Source: Bradymonas sediminis
GTDB lineage: Bacteria; Myxococcota_A; Bradymonadia; Bradymonadales; Bradymonadaceae
Direction: 5' to 3'
DNA length: 64,000 bases
NCBI RefSeq assembly: GCF_003258315.1
Contig: NZ_CP030032.1
Coordinates: 1-64,000, forward strand
Below, piece by piece: positions 44,510 through 51,600 of the stretch. Numbering within the stretch: position 1 is the stretch's first letter; the number at the start of each line of letters is the position of its first letter. The notes beneath the pieces are model-generated. The model was given only the letters and a program-made list of their open reading frames with translations. It made no database searches and was not told the DNA's origin. The translations under genes were made by a program, and so were the position numbers.

Positions 44510-45346
44510 TCAGGGCCAGGTGTCGGGGGGCGCCCAGGGGCCGCCGAGCTGCGGGGTGCCGCCCGGCCAGGGGTGGTCGGGGTAGAAGATCTCGACGAGC
44601 CGAAGCCCCTGAGGCGGCGCGGTCGGCCCGCCCAATTGGCGCTCACCGGTGGCGAACATCTCCTTGATGACCTCGGGCGCAGCCTGACCGCTGCCGATAT
44701 GAACCAGGGTCCCTACGATGATGCGCACCATATATTTTAAGAAGGCGGTGCCCTCGACCTCGACCCGAATTCGCTGGTCCTCGGCGATGATCTCGACGCG
44801 GCTCAGCGCCCGCACGGTCGTCTCCGCCGAGCAATTCTTGCCCCGAAACGCCGAGAAGTCATGCTCGCCGACCAGGTAGGTCGCGGCCTCGCGCATCGCG
44901 TCGAGGTCGAGGTCGCCGCAAACCTGCCAGACCCGATCGCGCAGCAGCGGATGATTGAAGCGGTGATGCCAGATATCATATTGGTAGATCTTTCCGCGGG
45001 CGGAATGGCGCGCGTGAAACCCCGGGGGGGCCGAATCGCCGTAGACCACGCAGATGTCTTCGTCGGTCAGCGCGTTGAGGGCGCGCACGAAGTCCCAGGG
45101 CGTGAGAGCCTTGTCGACGTCGTAGGCGATATGGGCGACCTGCCCGAGCGCGTGCACGCCGGCGTCGGTGCGGCTCGCGCCCTGGATCTTAACCTCGTCG
45201 GCGGCGCAATTTAGTATGCGCATCGCCGCCTTGGTCAGGTCGCCCTCGACCGAGCGGGCGTTCGATTGGATCTGCCAGCCGTGGTAGGCGGTGCCGTCAT
45301 AGGCGACAAGAATGCGATGGTGGATCTGCTTATACGTGCGCATCAT
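44510..45346 (-). CDS. truA: tRNA pseudouridine synthase A
   Basis: TruA converts uridines 38-40 in the anticodon stem-loop of many tRNAs to pseudouridine. The catalytic Asp lies in GASRTDAGVHALGQVAH, and the family segments VAYDGTAYHGWQ, FHARHSARGKIYQYDIW and FLKYMVRIIVGTLV are all present. The length (about 278 residues) is slightly above average because of a Pro/Gly-rich tail. Two adjacent ATGs (45346, 45343) and an upstream GTG (45355) could start it. It is convergent with the SurA-like gene, with directly abutting stops and no room for a separate terminator. Confidence 0.95.
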   Translation of the reverse strand: MMRTYKQIHHRILVAYDGTAYHGWQIQSNARSVEGDLTKAAMRILNCAADEVKIQGASRTDAGVHALGQVAHIAYDVDKALTPWDFVRALNALTDEDICVVYGDSAPPGFHARHSARGKIYQYDIWHHRFNHPLLRDRVWQVCGDLDLDAMREAATYLVGEHDFSAFRGKNCSAETTVRALSRVEIIAEDQRIRVEVEGTAFLKYMVRIIVGTLVHIGSGQAAPEVIKEMFATGERQLGGPTAPPQGLRLVEIFYPDHPWPGGTPQLGGPWAPPDTWP

Positions 45347-45412
45347 AACGTGCACCGAGGTTGGTTTGCGCGGGTTGAGACGGGTGAGCGATGTGCTGAG
45401 TGGGGCTGTGAA

Positions 45413-47341
45413 TCAGTATTCGAACGCCACGCCAAAGACCCACAGATCGTCGCTGAGGTTGAAGCTCTCGTCGCTGCCAAAGTCATCGATCTGGCGCATG
45501 CTATATTCGGCGAAGAGGTAGGAGTTATTGATGCCCCAGGTGCGGTCGAACCCGGCGGCGCTCTCCGGCTCAATCCAGTCAAGCCACAGGTGCAGCGCGC
45601 CGGCGACATGCCAGCCGGCGGTGGCGCCGTTGCCCTTATTGCCCTGGTAGGTGGAGGTCGTGCCGCTGCTCGAGCCGGTGGACCAGAAGACATAATCCAC
45701 GCCGCCTTTGACGACCGGGACCAGCGGGATGCTCCAGAATTTCTCAAGGATATCAAAGCGATAGTAAAGCGACAGGCCCATCGGGATCAGCATAAACTCG
45801 GTCTTCTCGCCGATGCTATCCGACGAGGTCGCGCTGCCGTCGGAGGTGTCGCCGACCAGCACGTCGCCGCTGAAATTGGTGTAGCCGATGCGCCCGCTGA
45901 CGCCGAGGGCGCCGAAGCCCTGGAGCAGGTGAACGCCCATCTCGTACTCGCCGACGACGCGGTTGCTATCGCCAAAGGTATCTGCGAAGGGAGTGCCGCT
46001 GAGGCCGGCTTCCTCGTCGATGCCGGGGTAATAGATGCCGACGCGGACCTCGCTGATTCCGTGGATGTCCGACTCGGCGTAGGCGTTGGCCGAGACGGCC
46101 GTCGCGCCGCCCATGGCCACTAGCGCGACCAGGTAGGGAGCGAGGGATTTGGCGTTGCCGGGGCGACGGCGACGAAACGCCAGCACGCCCAGGCCCGCGA
46201 AGGCGAAGAGCAGCCCGCCGGGGAGCGCGCCGCCGGCGCTCGGGGCGACGCTGCACCCGCCGCGCTCGTTGCCGCCCGCGTCGTGATAATGCTCCCAAAA
46301 ATCAGTCACTTCGACGATCTCAAAGCCCTCGCCGTTGGGGTCGAGTTCCTCGCCGGGGAAGGTCGGCTCACTGGCGTTTTCGGCCAGGTCGCGCGAGGAA
46401 ATCGCGACGAAGAGTTTTCCGTTTGCGTCCGCCGGAAGTTGGGTGATCGTGGCGCTACCGGAGTACTCGCTGCCGCTGGGGTCCGGGTTATCCAGGTTGA
46501 TGACCCGGCTGTAGATCGTGTCGGAGGCCTCGATCTCGGCGATGGTCATGCCCGAGAAGTCGGTGGCCGACCAATACGCTTTATAGTCCTTGATCTTGGT
46601 GACGTTGGACTGGGTCCAGGTCGCATAAATGCTCCGCTCGGTCACCGCGATCTGGCTGATCTCGGACGGGCCGTTGGGGCGCAGGGTGTCGATCTCGATG
46701 CGCGCGTCGCTCAGCTCCTTTTGGTCGGAGTTGATGCCGATATTCTTCATGAAGATGCGCAGGAAATACTGCTGGTTGACCGACGCGCTTCCCTCCTGGT
46801 TGCAGTCGTCGACGTTCTCGATGAGCGCGACATTATTACTCGCGTCCAGCTCGGCCACGGCTTCTTTGACCATGCGCCGAAAGGGGATCACGATGTCGAG
46901 GCCGCGCTCGGTTTCATTCTCGCGCTTAAACCAGTTGATGTCGGCGATATCGACGCAGTTTCGGGTGTTGTCCGGCGTGCAGGTGAAGTCCTGCGGGGTC
47001 TCGTCGGCGGGCACCGCGAAGAACATGATCCGGTCGATGCACGGGGTCGCGCCGATGCAGCGATTCGGCGAGACGCTGCTGATGAAATTATAGGAGATGC
47101 GCAGGTCGTTATCGCCAGTCCACAGGCTCTGGCATTGCTCGCGGCCGAGCAAAATATCGCGCGTGTCGTTATTGAGACCGGTGATGAATTTGCTCGTCGG
47201 CTCAACGGAAACCGAGGCGTCGAGGGTGGACGATTCGATATTGAGCGCGGACGCCGTCGAGACGCCGGCCAGGCAAGCGAAGGCCGCTGCGAGGGTCATC
47301 GCGAAATATCGAATGGAGCCGGGTGTTTTGGAGCAATTCAT
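45413..47341 (-). CDS. Fused surface protein: exported domain, MYXO-CTERM-like tag, then outer-membrane beta-barrel
   Basis: A 642-residue frame (start ATG 47341, GAGG upstream). It begins with a signal peptide (cleavage about SALN) and an exported Cys-containing region (about 35-360) with a beta-rich, fibronectin-like part (ISQIAVTERSIYATWTQ). Residues 361-393 look like a C-terminal sorting tag: GGCS, a hydrophobic helix GGLLFAFAGLGVLAF, then RRRR. The chain does not end there. A second signal-like segment follows (399-422, ending SANAYA), then about 220 residues of amphipathic strands typical of an outer-membrane barrel, ending in FGVAFEY with a terminal aromatic. No internal start with a full signal peptide is available. 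The halves may be separated after export. Confidence 0.78.
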   Translation of the reverse strand: MNCSKTPGSIRYFAMTLAAAFACLAGVSTASALNIESSTLDASVSVEPTSKFITGLNNDTRDILLGREQCQSLWTGDNDLRISYNFISSVSPNRCIGATPCIDRIMFFAVPADETPQDFTCTPDNTRNCVDIADINWFKRENETERGLDIVIPFRRMVKEAVAELDASNNVALIENVDDCNQEGSASVNQQYFLRIFMKNIGINSDQKELSDARIEIDTLRPNGPSEISQIAVTERSIYATWTQSNVTKIKDYKAYWSATDFSGMTIAEIEASDTIYSRVINLDNPDPSGSEYSGSATITQLPADANGKLFVAISSRDLAENASEPTFPGEELDPNGEGFEIVEVTDFWEHYHDAGGNERGGCSVAPSAGGALPGGLLFAFAGLGVLAFRRRRPGNAKSLAPYLVALVAMGGATAVSANAYAESDIHGISEVRVGIYYPGIDEEAGLSGTPFADTFGDSNRVVGEYEMGVHLLQGFGALGVSGRIGYTNFSGDVLVGDTSDGSATSSDSIGEKTEFMLIPMGLSLYYRFDILEKFWSIPLVPVVKGGVDYVFWSTGSSSGTTSTYQGNKGNGATAGWHVAGALHLWLDWIEPESAAGFDRTWGINNSYLFAEYSMRQIDDFGSDESFNLSDDLWVFGVAFEY

Positions 47342-47472: not shown

Positions 47473-48528
47473 TTATGCGCGGCGGCGCACGATTTCTTCG
47501 GCGATTTGCACCGCGTTGAGGGCGGCGCCTTTGCGCAGGTTATCGCTGACGCACCAGAAGTGAAGCGTCTTAGGGCGCCCAAGGTCCTGGCGCACCCGCC
47601 CGATCCAGGTCGCGTCGGTGCCCGCGGCCTGGCGCGCGCGCGGGTAGGTGAGGGTCGACGGGTCGTCGAGCAGGCTGACGCCGGGGGCGTCGCTCCACAG
47701 CGCGTGGGCCTGCTCGGCGCTCAGCGGCTTGGCCAGGTCGACCGTGATCGATTCGGAGTGGCTGCGCACCGCCGGCACGCGCACGCAGGTCGCGGCGACA
47801 TCCAGCCCGGAGAGCCCCATGATCTTACGGGTCTCCTCGATCATCTTCACCTCTTCGCGGGTGAAGCCCGAGTCCAAAAAGGAGTCGATCTGCGGCAGCA
47901 CGTCGAAGGCCAACGGGTAGGCGAAGGTGGTGTCCGACGAGGCGGCGGTCGGGTTTTCGGTGTCGCCGTCGAGATATTCGCGCGTGGTCTTGAGCATCTC
48001 GTCGATGCCCTTTTGACCGGCGCCCGACGCCGATTGATAGGTGCTCACGATGACGCGTTCCAGGCCCGCGGCCTCGGCCAGCGGCTGGAGCGCGACGACC
48101 ATTTGGATGGTCGAGCAATTCGGGTTGGCGATGATGCCGGGTTGGTCGACGATCGCCTGGGGGTTGACCTCGGGGACCACCAGCGGGGTGTCCGGGTTCA
48201 TGCGAAACGCGCTGGTATTGTCGATGACGATGCAGCCCTGCTCGACCGCGCGCGGGGCGTGCTCCAGGCTGGGCGTGGAGCCGGCCGAAAAGAGCGCGAA
48301 GTCCACGCCTTCGAAAGACGCGGTTTGCAGGTCTTCGACCTGCACCGACTTGCCGCCGAAGTCGATCGTCCCGCCGGCTGAGCGGGCGGACGCCATCGCG
48401 CGCAGGCGGGCGACGGGGAAGCCGCGCTCGGCCAAAATGGCGAGCATCTCCTGGCCGACGGCGCCGGTCGCGCCGACGACGGCGACGTTATATCCGCTGT
48501 CCGAAATCTGGGTTCCTTTTTGGCTCAT
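47473..48528 (-). CDS. asd: Aspartate-semialdehyde dehydrogenase
   Basis: Asd reduces aspartyl-4-phosphate to aspartate semialdehyde with NADPH, the branch point to lysine, diaminopimelate, threonine and methionine. From ATG 48528 the protein has 351 residues. It has the cofactor loop VGATGAVGQEML (about 18-29), the active-site Cys138 in ANPNCST, and the later segments QSASGAGQKGIDE and RVPAVRSHSE with the catalytic His. This is the bacterial single-Cys-loop type. The frame is open upstream to 48666, but GGAGACAG just before 48528 and family alignment favour the shorter form. It follows the tricorn gene by 94 bases on the same strand. Confidence 0.96.
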   Translation of the reverse strand: MSQKGTQISDSGYNVAVVGATGAVGQEMLAILAERGFPVARLRAMASARSAGGTIDFGGKSVQVEDLQTASFEGVDFALFSAGSTPSLEHAPRAVEQGCIVIDNTSAFRMNPDTPLVVPEVNPQAIVDQPGIIANPNCSTIQMVVALQPLAEAAGLERVIVSTYQSASGAGQKGIDEMLKTTREYLDGDTENPTAASSDTTFAYPLAFDVLPQIDSFLDSGFTREEVKMIEETRKIMGLSGLDVAATCVRVPAVRSHSESITVDLAKPLSAEQAHALWSDAPGVSLLDDPSTLTYPRARQAAGTDATWIGRVRQDLGRPKTLHFWCVSDNLRKGAALNAVQIAEEIVRRRA

Positions 48529-48622
48529 CTCTTCTGTCTCCACGGCCTTATCCAAGGCGTCTGCGATTAATGTGCTGCGGTTATTAAACCGGGTCGAGGG
48601 GCGCGTCGCGCCCGGCGAAAAC

Positions 48623-51600
48623 TCAGTCGAGTTTCCCGGGAGGCGCCATATTCGGGTATGGAGCAAACTCGGGCAGGTCGGTATTTTGTTCCTTCAATAA
48701 TTCCAACGCCTTCGCGATCGCCGCGTCAAGCTGCGGGTCCTCGCCGCGATCTTCGACGCCCGGTGGGTTTTCGACCTCGATATCGGGGTCGGTGCCCCAG
48801 TTTTCGACGCTAAATCCGACGTCTTCAAACCAGAAGGAAAACTCCGGCTGCGTGGTGATCGAGCCGTCCACCAGCGCGTGGCGCGGCCAGATGCCGACGA
48901 CCCCGCCCCAGGTGCGCTTGCCGAGCAGCGGCCCGAGCCCCATCAGCTTAAATGAGTGGCTGAAGATGTCGCCGTCGCTGCCGGCGTGTTCGTTGGTCAG
49001 GGCGACCAGCGGCCCGCAGACCGCCTCCTGGGGGTAGCTCACCGGCGTGCCCCAGCGCTGAATATCGTAGCCGATCGGGCGCCGGGCGAGTTTTTCGAGC
49101 AGCAATTGGCTGACGTGGCCGCCGCCGTTATAGCGCACGTCCACGACCAGGCCCTTGCGGGTATTTTCCGAGACATAGGCGCGGTGGAACTCGGCGAAAC
49201 CCTCGGGGCCCATATCCGGGATATGGACATAGCCAAGTTTTCCTTCGGAGGCTTCGTGGACGCGCTTTCGATTCTTATAGACCCACTCACGATAGCGGGC
49301 CGCGGACTCACTCGGGAGCGTCTTGATGGTGTAGCGGCTCAGGGCGTCCGAGACGTCGCTGCCGTCTTCGTTACACTCGCCGTCTTTGCGGATGACCACG
49401 ATCTCGACCTCTTTGCCGGCGTGGTTGAGCAGGCGCTGCTCGACGCTGACGCTCGCGTCGACGCGCTGGCCGTTGATGGCGATGACCACGTCATCTTCGG
49501 CCACGTCGATGCCCGGGCGCGCCAGAGGCGAGCGCTCGCGCGGGTCCCATGTCTCACCGGCGACGATTTTTTGGATGCGATAGCCGCCTTTTTGGGTCGG
49601 CTGTGCATCGGCGTCGCCTTCGTCGGCCAGCGTGTATTCGAAGTCGGGGTCCCAGACGAGGTCGGCGCCCAAAAAGCCCGGCTGATGATAGGGTACGGGC
49701 TCGTAGTCGCCGCCGATCTCATAGGCGTGACTGGTGCCCAATTCGCCCTGCATCGTCCAGACCAGGTCGCTGAACTCACCGCGGGTGCCGACGCGGTCCA
49801 AGAGCGCCGAATAGCGCTGCCAGACCTCGTCCCAGTCGACGCCGTTCATGTCGGCGCGCCAGAAATGCTCGCGCATCAAGCGCCAGGTTTCGTGGAGCAT
49901 CTGCTCCCACTCGGCCCGCGGCTCGACTGGCACCGACAGGCGCCCGAGGTCGATAAACCCGCTGCTTCGCGAGGGCGTGGCGTCGTCGGACTCGCTGTGA
50001 ATCGGGCCTTCGCCGCCAGCGCTCACGACCTGAAGGCCGTCGTCGGTCCACAGGGCGATCGTCTTGAGGTCGGCCGAGAATTCGACGCCGGAGACGCCGC
50101 GCGCGAAGGTCTTGGTGCGGTGCTTATTGAGCGAATAATACCGCAGCGTGCTCGTGCTTGGGTGCCCATGACCCGCGTCCAAGCCGCCGCCCAGGCTCCC
50201 CTCGATGGGCGAGACGGTCCAGAAGATCCGCGACTCGGTCGCGGCGAGGTCGTCGTAATTTCCCTCGCGCCCCGGGAAGATCTCGACGCGATGCTCGATA
50301 CCCTCGAAGTCGATCTCGATGGACTTCGCGTCATCTTCGGCGTCGTCCTCTTGTTCGGCTTGCTCCGAGGACCCGTCCGCGCTCTCGGCCGCATTCTCAT
50401 CCGCGGAGACGTTTTGCTCCTCGGGGGACTCTTCGGAGTCTTCTTCTTCGTCGTGCTGATCGTCGTCATCGTCATCCGGGTCTTCGTCCAACGGGCGCGG
50501 CGTCTCCATAAAGAGCGAGGGGACGTCGTCTCGAAGGGTCACCACGCAGGGTTTCATCGCGCGGGGGAAGCTTAATTCGAAGAAGATCTCGTCGTAAACC
50601 GGGTTGAATTTCCGGTAGGACAGGAAATAGAGATAGCGCCCCTTGGGGTCGAAAACCGGCTGGATATCCAGGTAATCGCCGCTGGTCACGGGGTGGACGG
50701 CGTCGCTGTGGAGGTCATAGATGCGCACCTGCGCGGTGGCGAAATTATTGGCGACCGCGTAGGCGACCCAGCGGCCATCTGCCGACCAGTCGAAGCCCTT
50801 GATTTCGGCGTATTTGCTGCGATCCAACACTCGCGCCTTGCCGGTGCCCAGGTCCAGGTGCACCAGTTCGTGGCGGTGGTTCGTGAGGACGACTTCGTCC
50901 GCCGTGGGCGAGACTTTGAGCTCGATCGGGCGGCCAATTTTGAAATCACCGGTGTCGATCTTGACCGGCGCGCGGGCGCCGTCGACGCGGTGGATCTCCA
51001 GGCGCTCCTCGCCGCCGGCGTCCGAGCAAACGACGATGCGGTCGCTGCCTTTTTTAGCGGCGTTTTTTGCGGCATCCGAGGTTGGGTTCAGGTAGGTCGC
51101 CAGGCGGTAGCGCACGCCCTGTTCCTCGCCGAGTTGGCGGGTCGCGCCCTCCCAATTGCCGAAGTCAAAGAGCTTGCCGCGGGTGGTCACCGCGAGGCGA
51201 TGGCCGCGCGGGTGAAGGGCGAAGGAGTCGAGATAATCCTCGGCGTCCACGTATTTTCGGCGCAGGCCATCGCGCGGCGAGGCGTAGTCGCATTCGATGC
51301 GCGAGGTCTTACCGCTGGCGACGTCGAAATGCCAAAGGTCGCCGCCGACCGTGTAGACGATCGACTCGCCGTCGGTGGCGGCGAAGCGGGCGTAGAAGCC
51401 GATATGCTCGGTGTGGCGCGTCAGGTCGGAGCCGTCGGTCAGGCAGGAATAGAGGTTGGCGTAGCCCTCTTCGTCCGACAGGAAATAGACGCGCTCGCCG
51501 ATCCACATCGGGCGCACCAGGCCGGCCGAATCTTTGCCCGACACAAATTGCGGGCGCAGGCGCTCCCAATTGCCGGAGCCGTCGGCGTCGATCCACAACA

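Follow-up and report, generated by a model that had tools for sequence, protein, structure and literature searches.

The closest described system is MXAN_5598 of Myxococcus xanthus, which, like the gene analyzed here, is a single ORF with an internal MYXO-CTERM motif followed by an outer-membrane barrel, and for which both an origin by gene fusion and processing at the internal tag have been suggested (PMC11980579; Guo, Haft and Wall, mBio 2025). Because MXAN_5598 was described as having probably been fused with a barrel, the arrangement of an internal tag and a barrel is of a kind already known, and ORFs with internal MYXO-CTERM motifs were noted as rare (PMC11980579). MXAN_5598 has a large adhesin as its N part, a barrel with an OmpA domain, and an ftsA/ftsZ neighborhood, whereas the gene of the window corresponds to the MXAN_2561/MXAN_2562 pair and lies between asd and truA. 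As for the tag itself, MrtX cuts that of TraA in a Cys-dependent manner, and lipidation of the Cys, a cytoplasmic Arg cluster, and export by the T2SS were proposed for MYXO-CTERM proteins; the cut was shown for C-terminal tags, and a function of internal ones was proposed by the authors (PMC11980579). TraA and TraB provide a second parallel, as a MYXO-CTERM surface protein and a barrel partner encoded by overlapping ORFs, but there the barrel-side protein is likened to a barrel with an OmpA domain (PMC11980579), and the searches made showed no homology of the window protein to TraA or TraB.

The MXAN_2561/MXAN_2562 pair shares with the window gene the barrel family (above its cut-off), the order, the syntenic position, and an upstream product ending in MYXO-CTERM. 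It differs in consisting of two overlapping genes in split genomes, as against one ORF in the window. FbcH of Bradyrhizobium japonicum is a cytochrome b/c1 polyprotein cut by signal peptidase at an internal signal peptide; unlike the window ORF, it is a respiratory enzyme and comes with neither sorting tag nor myxosortase. Polyproteins of the bacterial envelope are considered rare. Searches on internal-signal polyproteins, on fbcH, and on Bradymonas with MYXO-CTERM returned nothing in the literature covered.

The window (the whole stretch of 64,000 nucleotides analyzed, positions 1 to 64,000 of NZ_CP030032.1) belongs to a Bradymonas sediminis genome consisting of one 5.05-Mb contig, 99.8% complete. 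The ORF opens with an ATG at 47341 and reads to a stop at 45413-45415 without internal stop or frameshift (Table 1).

Table 1. Features of the fused ORF, its neighbors, and other ORFs with internal tags. Positions are those of the window unless preceded by a contig label.
Feature	Residues	Position	Strand	Basis or content
Whole fused ORF	642 aa	45413..47341	minus	MXAN_2561-position gene and MXAN_2562-family gene joined
N-terminal signal peptide	1-32	47246..47341	minus	h-region, ASA before L33; putative cleavage site
N product, Ig/FN3-like domains	33-360	46262..47245	minus	conservation, AlphaFold, PDB matches
Internal MYXO-CTERM tag	361-393	46163..46261	minus	TIGR03901 match; putative processing after PMC11980579
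Second signal peptide	394-422	46076..46162	minus	sequence, AlphaFold, position equal to that of the signal peptide of separate barrel genes
8-stranded outer-membrane barrel, MXAN_2562 family	423-642	45416..46075	minus	NF040596, AlphaFold, fold matches
asd (aspartate-semialdehyde dehydrogenase), upstream neighbor		47473..48666	minus	name from sequence reading
truA (tRNA pseudouridine synthase), downstream neighbor		44510..45355	minus	name from sequence reading
L091		C1:2400723-2402048	plus	lipoprotein signal, Cys-rich repeats, tag, AQA signal, barrel-like half
L092		C1:803542-807162	minus	M23 peptidase-like protein with repeats, tag, lipobox LMGC(-D), half weakly TolB-propeller-like
L200	1436 aa	about C1:4599734-4604041	minus	lipoprotein, tag, lipobox LTGC(-D), second lipoprotein-like half

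The two halves differ in how well they are recognized by family models. The barrel matches NF040596 (the MXAN_2562 barrel family) over residues 427-642 with 252.7 bits for a cut-off of 100, its eight strands lie between 428 and 641 in the AlphaFold model, and OmpA, OmpW, NspA, and OmpX are among its best PDB matches. The PDB matches of the N part are tandem Ig/FN3 domains, and the N product has conserved cysteines (C70, C129, and C180) and a DFWxxYxxAGG stem directly before the tag. NF045522 (the MXAN_2561 family) matches residues 312-393 weakly, with 34.9 bits for a cut-off of 150; the N half, which has the same position and the same tag stem, is treated here as a positional counterpart only of that family. 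A Pfam search with the 642-aa protein gave no match.

TIGR03901 (MYXO-CTERM) matches residues 361-393 with 25.0 bits in an NCBIfam search (cut-off 20), a modest score, with one Cys in place of GCGC. A scan of the entire genome recovered the same tag. The tag consists of G362-C363, a hydrophobic helix, and R390-R393. It is followed by 249 residues, while the terminal tags of this genome lie 0-10 residues from the protein end, and it is therefore an internal MYXO-CTERM-like tag rather than a standard C-terminal one. The segment that follows has a PGNAKS n-region, a hydrophobic stretch at 400-416, and AYA at 420-422. The AlphaFold run (15-row alignment, mean pLDDT 73.5, with low confidence in the linker itself) gives helices at residues 9-23 within the first signal peptide, 377-390 in the tag, and 401-418 in the second signal. 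TIGR03901, NF040596, and the structure model thus bear out the first-pass annotation in its account of a mid-chain tag, a second segment ending in AYA, and a barrel after it. The genome also encodes a myxosortase, MrtP (NF040674, 310.1 bits for a cut-off of 250), in which the EExxxR and HxxxN motifs are present as EEFFYR and HAAAN.

A match is present in 54 of the 57 genomes of the class, and the barrel family in 301 of the 380 genomes sampled across the phylum. The junction was read in 112 loci belonging to 32 family groups: 72 are split and 39, from 14 family groups, are one ORF, although 39/112 is not a phylum frequency because the later phylum loci were partly picked for long open frames. 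Among the loci of the class, which were sampled without regard to fusion, 24 are fused, 27 are split, and one lacks an N match. In the split loci (n = 72), which supply the species with separate adjacent halves that had been suggested as a check, the upstream gene ends in a tag and the barrel gene opens with its own signal peptide. The nearest barrel start overlaps the upstream stop by 4 nt in 45 of them and by 1 nt in nine, the ATGA type being the usual one. Since the segment equivalent to residues 361-393 ends a separate upstream gene in these genomes, its interpretation as a plug of the barrel was rejected.

In the window, the ORF has asd on its upstream side and truA on its downstream side, all three on one strand, and in the window and most loci of the class these genes flank fused and split loci alike. 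Many other loci of the phylum show partial truA or asd ends, and in a few, e.g., in G019, truA is on the opposite strand. Judged from gene order and sequence comparison, the window ORF is the fusion of an adjacent, translationally coupled gene pair located between asd and truA. The fusion had been supposed recent and uncommon. It is neither: the sister genus G013 has the fused form in common with Bradymonas (41% identity), which together with the barrel tree speaks against a recent origin, and 24 of the 51 fused or split loci of the class are fused, through several independent events. On the barrel tree, fusion state changes at least 17 times, of which at least five changes are forced by well-supported branches; this is a quick tree with many weak branches, in which gain and loss of fusion are not distinguishable. 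As read from these comparisons, this join has been made repeatedly in different parts of the phylum and is a recurring design, not a sequencing error. One genome (G374) holds two copies of the pair, L121 and L122, of which one is split and the other fused.

We consider it likely, from sequence, that the window ORF is an envelope polyprotein, arising from a fused gene pair and cut by myxosortase and signal peptidase. The first-pass annotation had opposed a polyprotein to a fusion of neighboring genes, and both are right: the fusion is established by the adjacent coupled pair, and the polyprotein is pointed to by the kept tag, the kept second signal, and the lost internal ribosome-binding site, with both cuts predicted. 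Elsewhere each of its halves is found as a protein of its own, and the second has no evident internal start. The course of events that we infer, from topology and lipidation to the two cuts, the surface display, and the partnership of the products, would begin with the first signal peptide starting export. The Ig/FN3 part would pass through the inner membrane up to the tag helix, which would halt transfer and leave RRRR in the cytoplasm. In the topology proposed for MYXO-CTERM proteins the end of this helix is cytoplasmic, and from there the second signal peptide, reached through the short cytoplasmic PGNAKS loop, could restart export, this time of the barrel. MrtP would release the N product at C363, which is predicted to be lipidated, by a cut just after this residue, as happens to MYXO-CTERM proteins in Myxococcus, so that it can be displayed on the surface. 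Signal peptidase I is predicted to cut after residue 422 (AYA), before E423, and this would free the barrel for insertion into the outer membrane. What remains would be a hairpin of two helices, about 60 residues long, and the surface Ig/FN3 protein and the barrel, its partner, would always be supplied in a 1:1 ratio. Myxosortase and signal peptidase I (signal peptidase II in the lipobox versions described below) would thus produce from one chain the two proteins for which split relatives use two genes.

The processing signals have been kept after fusion. By inspection, all 39 fused copies have the Cys, the hydrophobic helix, the basic residues, and the second hydrophobic signal segment, and the AxA-type end of this segment is clear in nearly all. 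Ten fused proteins with 24-39% identity to the window protein have C363 and the GG at 356-357 without exception; hence, the tag is not there by chance. This bears on the alternative that survives best, though we think it unlikely, in which the only cut is that of signal peptidase I at the second signal and the tag is no substrate of myxosortase, so that the tag helix keeps the N product anchored in the inner membrane. It would fit with the published cut concerning C-terminal tags, internal ones being proposed (PMC11980579), and with the weak tags of some fused copies, as in family group f7. Against it stand the invariance of C363, the myxosortase encoded in the genome, and the geometry after the second cut, which would bring the tag close to a free C-terminus once more, with about 29 residues following it. 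The presence of a myxosortase does not discriminate by itself, because the core is found in 78 of the 80 sampled genomes of the phylum, users of the CFI-box (see following) included; tag type was tested for a link with the presence of the enzyme, an idea that was dropped, as these same counts give no contrast. Genomes of family group f7 (L067, L074, and L094) show almost no tags over the MYXO-CTERM cut-off, yet they encode the myxosortase core, and the tags of their fused pairs depart from the model.

What fused copies have mostly lost is the ribosome-binding site of the second gene. The overlapping starts of split loci have a Shine-Dalgarno energy of -5 kcal/mol or lower in 59 of 62 cases (median -9.5). 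In 13 of the 39 fused loci the required stretch contains no start codon (ATG, GTG, or TTG), and the best internal Shine-Dalgarno site is at or below -5 in 12, random start triplets reaching this level in 32% of cases. No start codon is found in the 70 codons before the barrel in G025, G055, and G056. As the internal ribosome-binding site is lost in the fused copies, the barrel is most likely made from the long chain. These data also make it quite improbable that the barrel is produced additionally or exclusively from an internal start, in which case the fusion would be irrelevant to it. The window gene does offer such a start, an in-frame GTG in the tag helix before LAFRRRR, which would give MLAFRRRRPGNAKS..., a plausible signal peptide; this GTG is the single one in the required stretch and pairs little with the anti-Shine-Dalgarno (-2.6 kcal/mol, vs. 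the median of the overlapping split starts).

Slightly less probable still is an uncut chain that ties the inner to the outer membrane, with the hairpin in the former, the barrel in the latter, and the Ig/FN3 part in the periplasm. The ORF is indeed fused, its cleavage is a prediction, and AlphaFold predicts the two-helix hairpin; residues 419-427, which separate the second helix from the first strand, are however too few to span the periplasm, the AxA-type ends are kept, lipobox versions of the same layout exist, and split relatives make two proteins. Finally, a sequencing or assembly error hiding a stop and a start, which had been raised as a possible refutation, would need about one frame shift (68 of the 72 split loci share the frame offset) but can be set aside, since the genome is a single contig, the one-ORF form is also found in the single-contig genomes G013 and G001 and in 36 further loci, and the old ribosome-binding site is mostly gone in fused loci.

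CFI-box-CTERM provides a replacement of the tag before the same barrel. In f4 and f5, NF041770 matches this slot with 99-103 bits (cut-off 40); outside these two family groups the CFI-box was recognized by the CF[IV]A motif only. The slot has a conserved GG-x-C at the same place, then a helix and basic residues. CFI-box-CTERM differs from the MYXO-CTERM tag in having a domain of about 70 residues before the helix. The CFI-box form is fused in f4, f5, f9, f32, and f35, and split in other family groups. L029, L030, L117, and other loci of f4, f5, and f16 carry CFI-box-CTERM where other families carry MYXO-CTERM. The sequences hint that CFI-box-CTERM may also be a sorting tag; within the literature covered, a search on this domain found no paper on its function.

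Internal tags are not confined to this locus. Of the tags over the cut-off in the B. sediminis genome, 19 of 23 are within 10 residues of the stop and four are internal; G013 has nine internal tags among 44 and G001 one among 21, which gives 14 of 88 for the three single-contig genomes pooled. A second signal, either type I or lipobox, follows all 14 by eye and 13 of them by a fixed rule, which 116 of 2219 control windows (5%) pass. Three further B. sediminis ORFs illustrate the layout (Table 1). That of L091 is found as one ORF in 11 related loci (L177-L187), and that of L092 in nine. The layout of L200 is widely conserved in the family, being present in 15 of 20 fetched loci, one of which (L217) belongs to the L092 family. 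In the latter two families, the lipobox second signals (LMGC-D and LTGC-D) are kept in nearly all the relatives examined, and it would be difficult to account for a conserved lipobox within an ORF without a cut of the chain at that point. L268 (G013:C1:4101500-4113000) is one ORF with tags at 4109367 and 4111311 and a lipobox after each (ASGC and TIGC), and is possibly a three-product polyprotein. L286 (G001:C1:2389500-2409000) has an open frame of 3578 residues with an internal tag near residue 1489, then a lipobox MVGC.

Taken over these families, the evidence inclines us, with some reserve, to a broader proposal. The tag helix and the second signal may form a standard in-frame "cut and restart" linker in Bradymonadales and relatives, stringing two or three exported proteins (surface proteins, barrels, and lipoproteins) in one ORF, to be separated by myxosortase together with signal peptidase I or II, with MYXO-CTERM and CFI-box-CTERM interchangeable. 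Within the literature searched, the features that appear new are the frequency, the recurrence at one locus, the loss of the internal start, a second signal as a rule after internal tags, the lipobox versions, the three-product ORF, and the exchange with the CFI-box. Because fusion was repeated and both processing signals were kept each time, these genes are a natural test of a sorting tag placed mid-chain. With them it can be asked directly if myxosortase accepts long extensions, if the cut comes after lipidation, and which function the CFI-box-CTERM domain has in the place of the tag. Genome annotation is also affected, as each such ORF would stand for two or three mature proteins.
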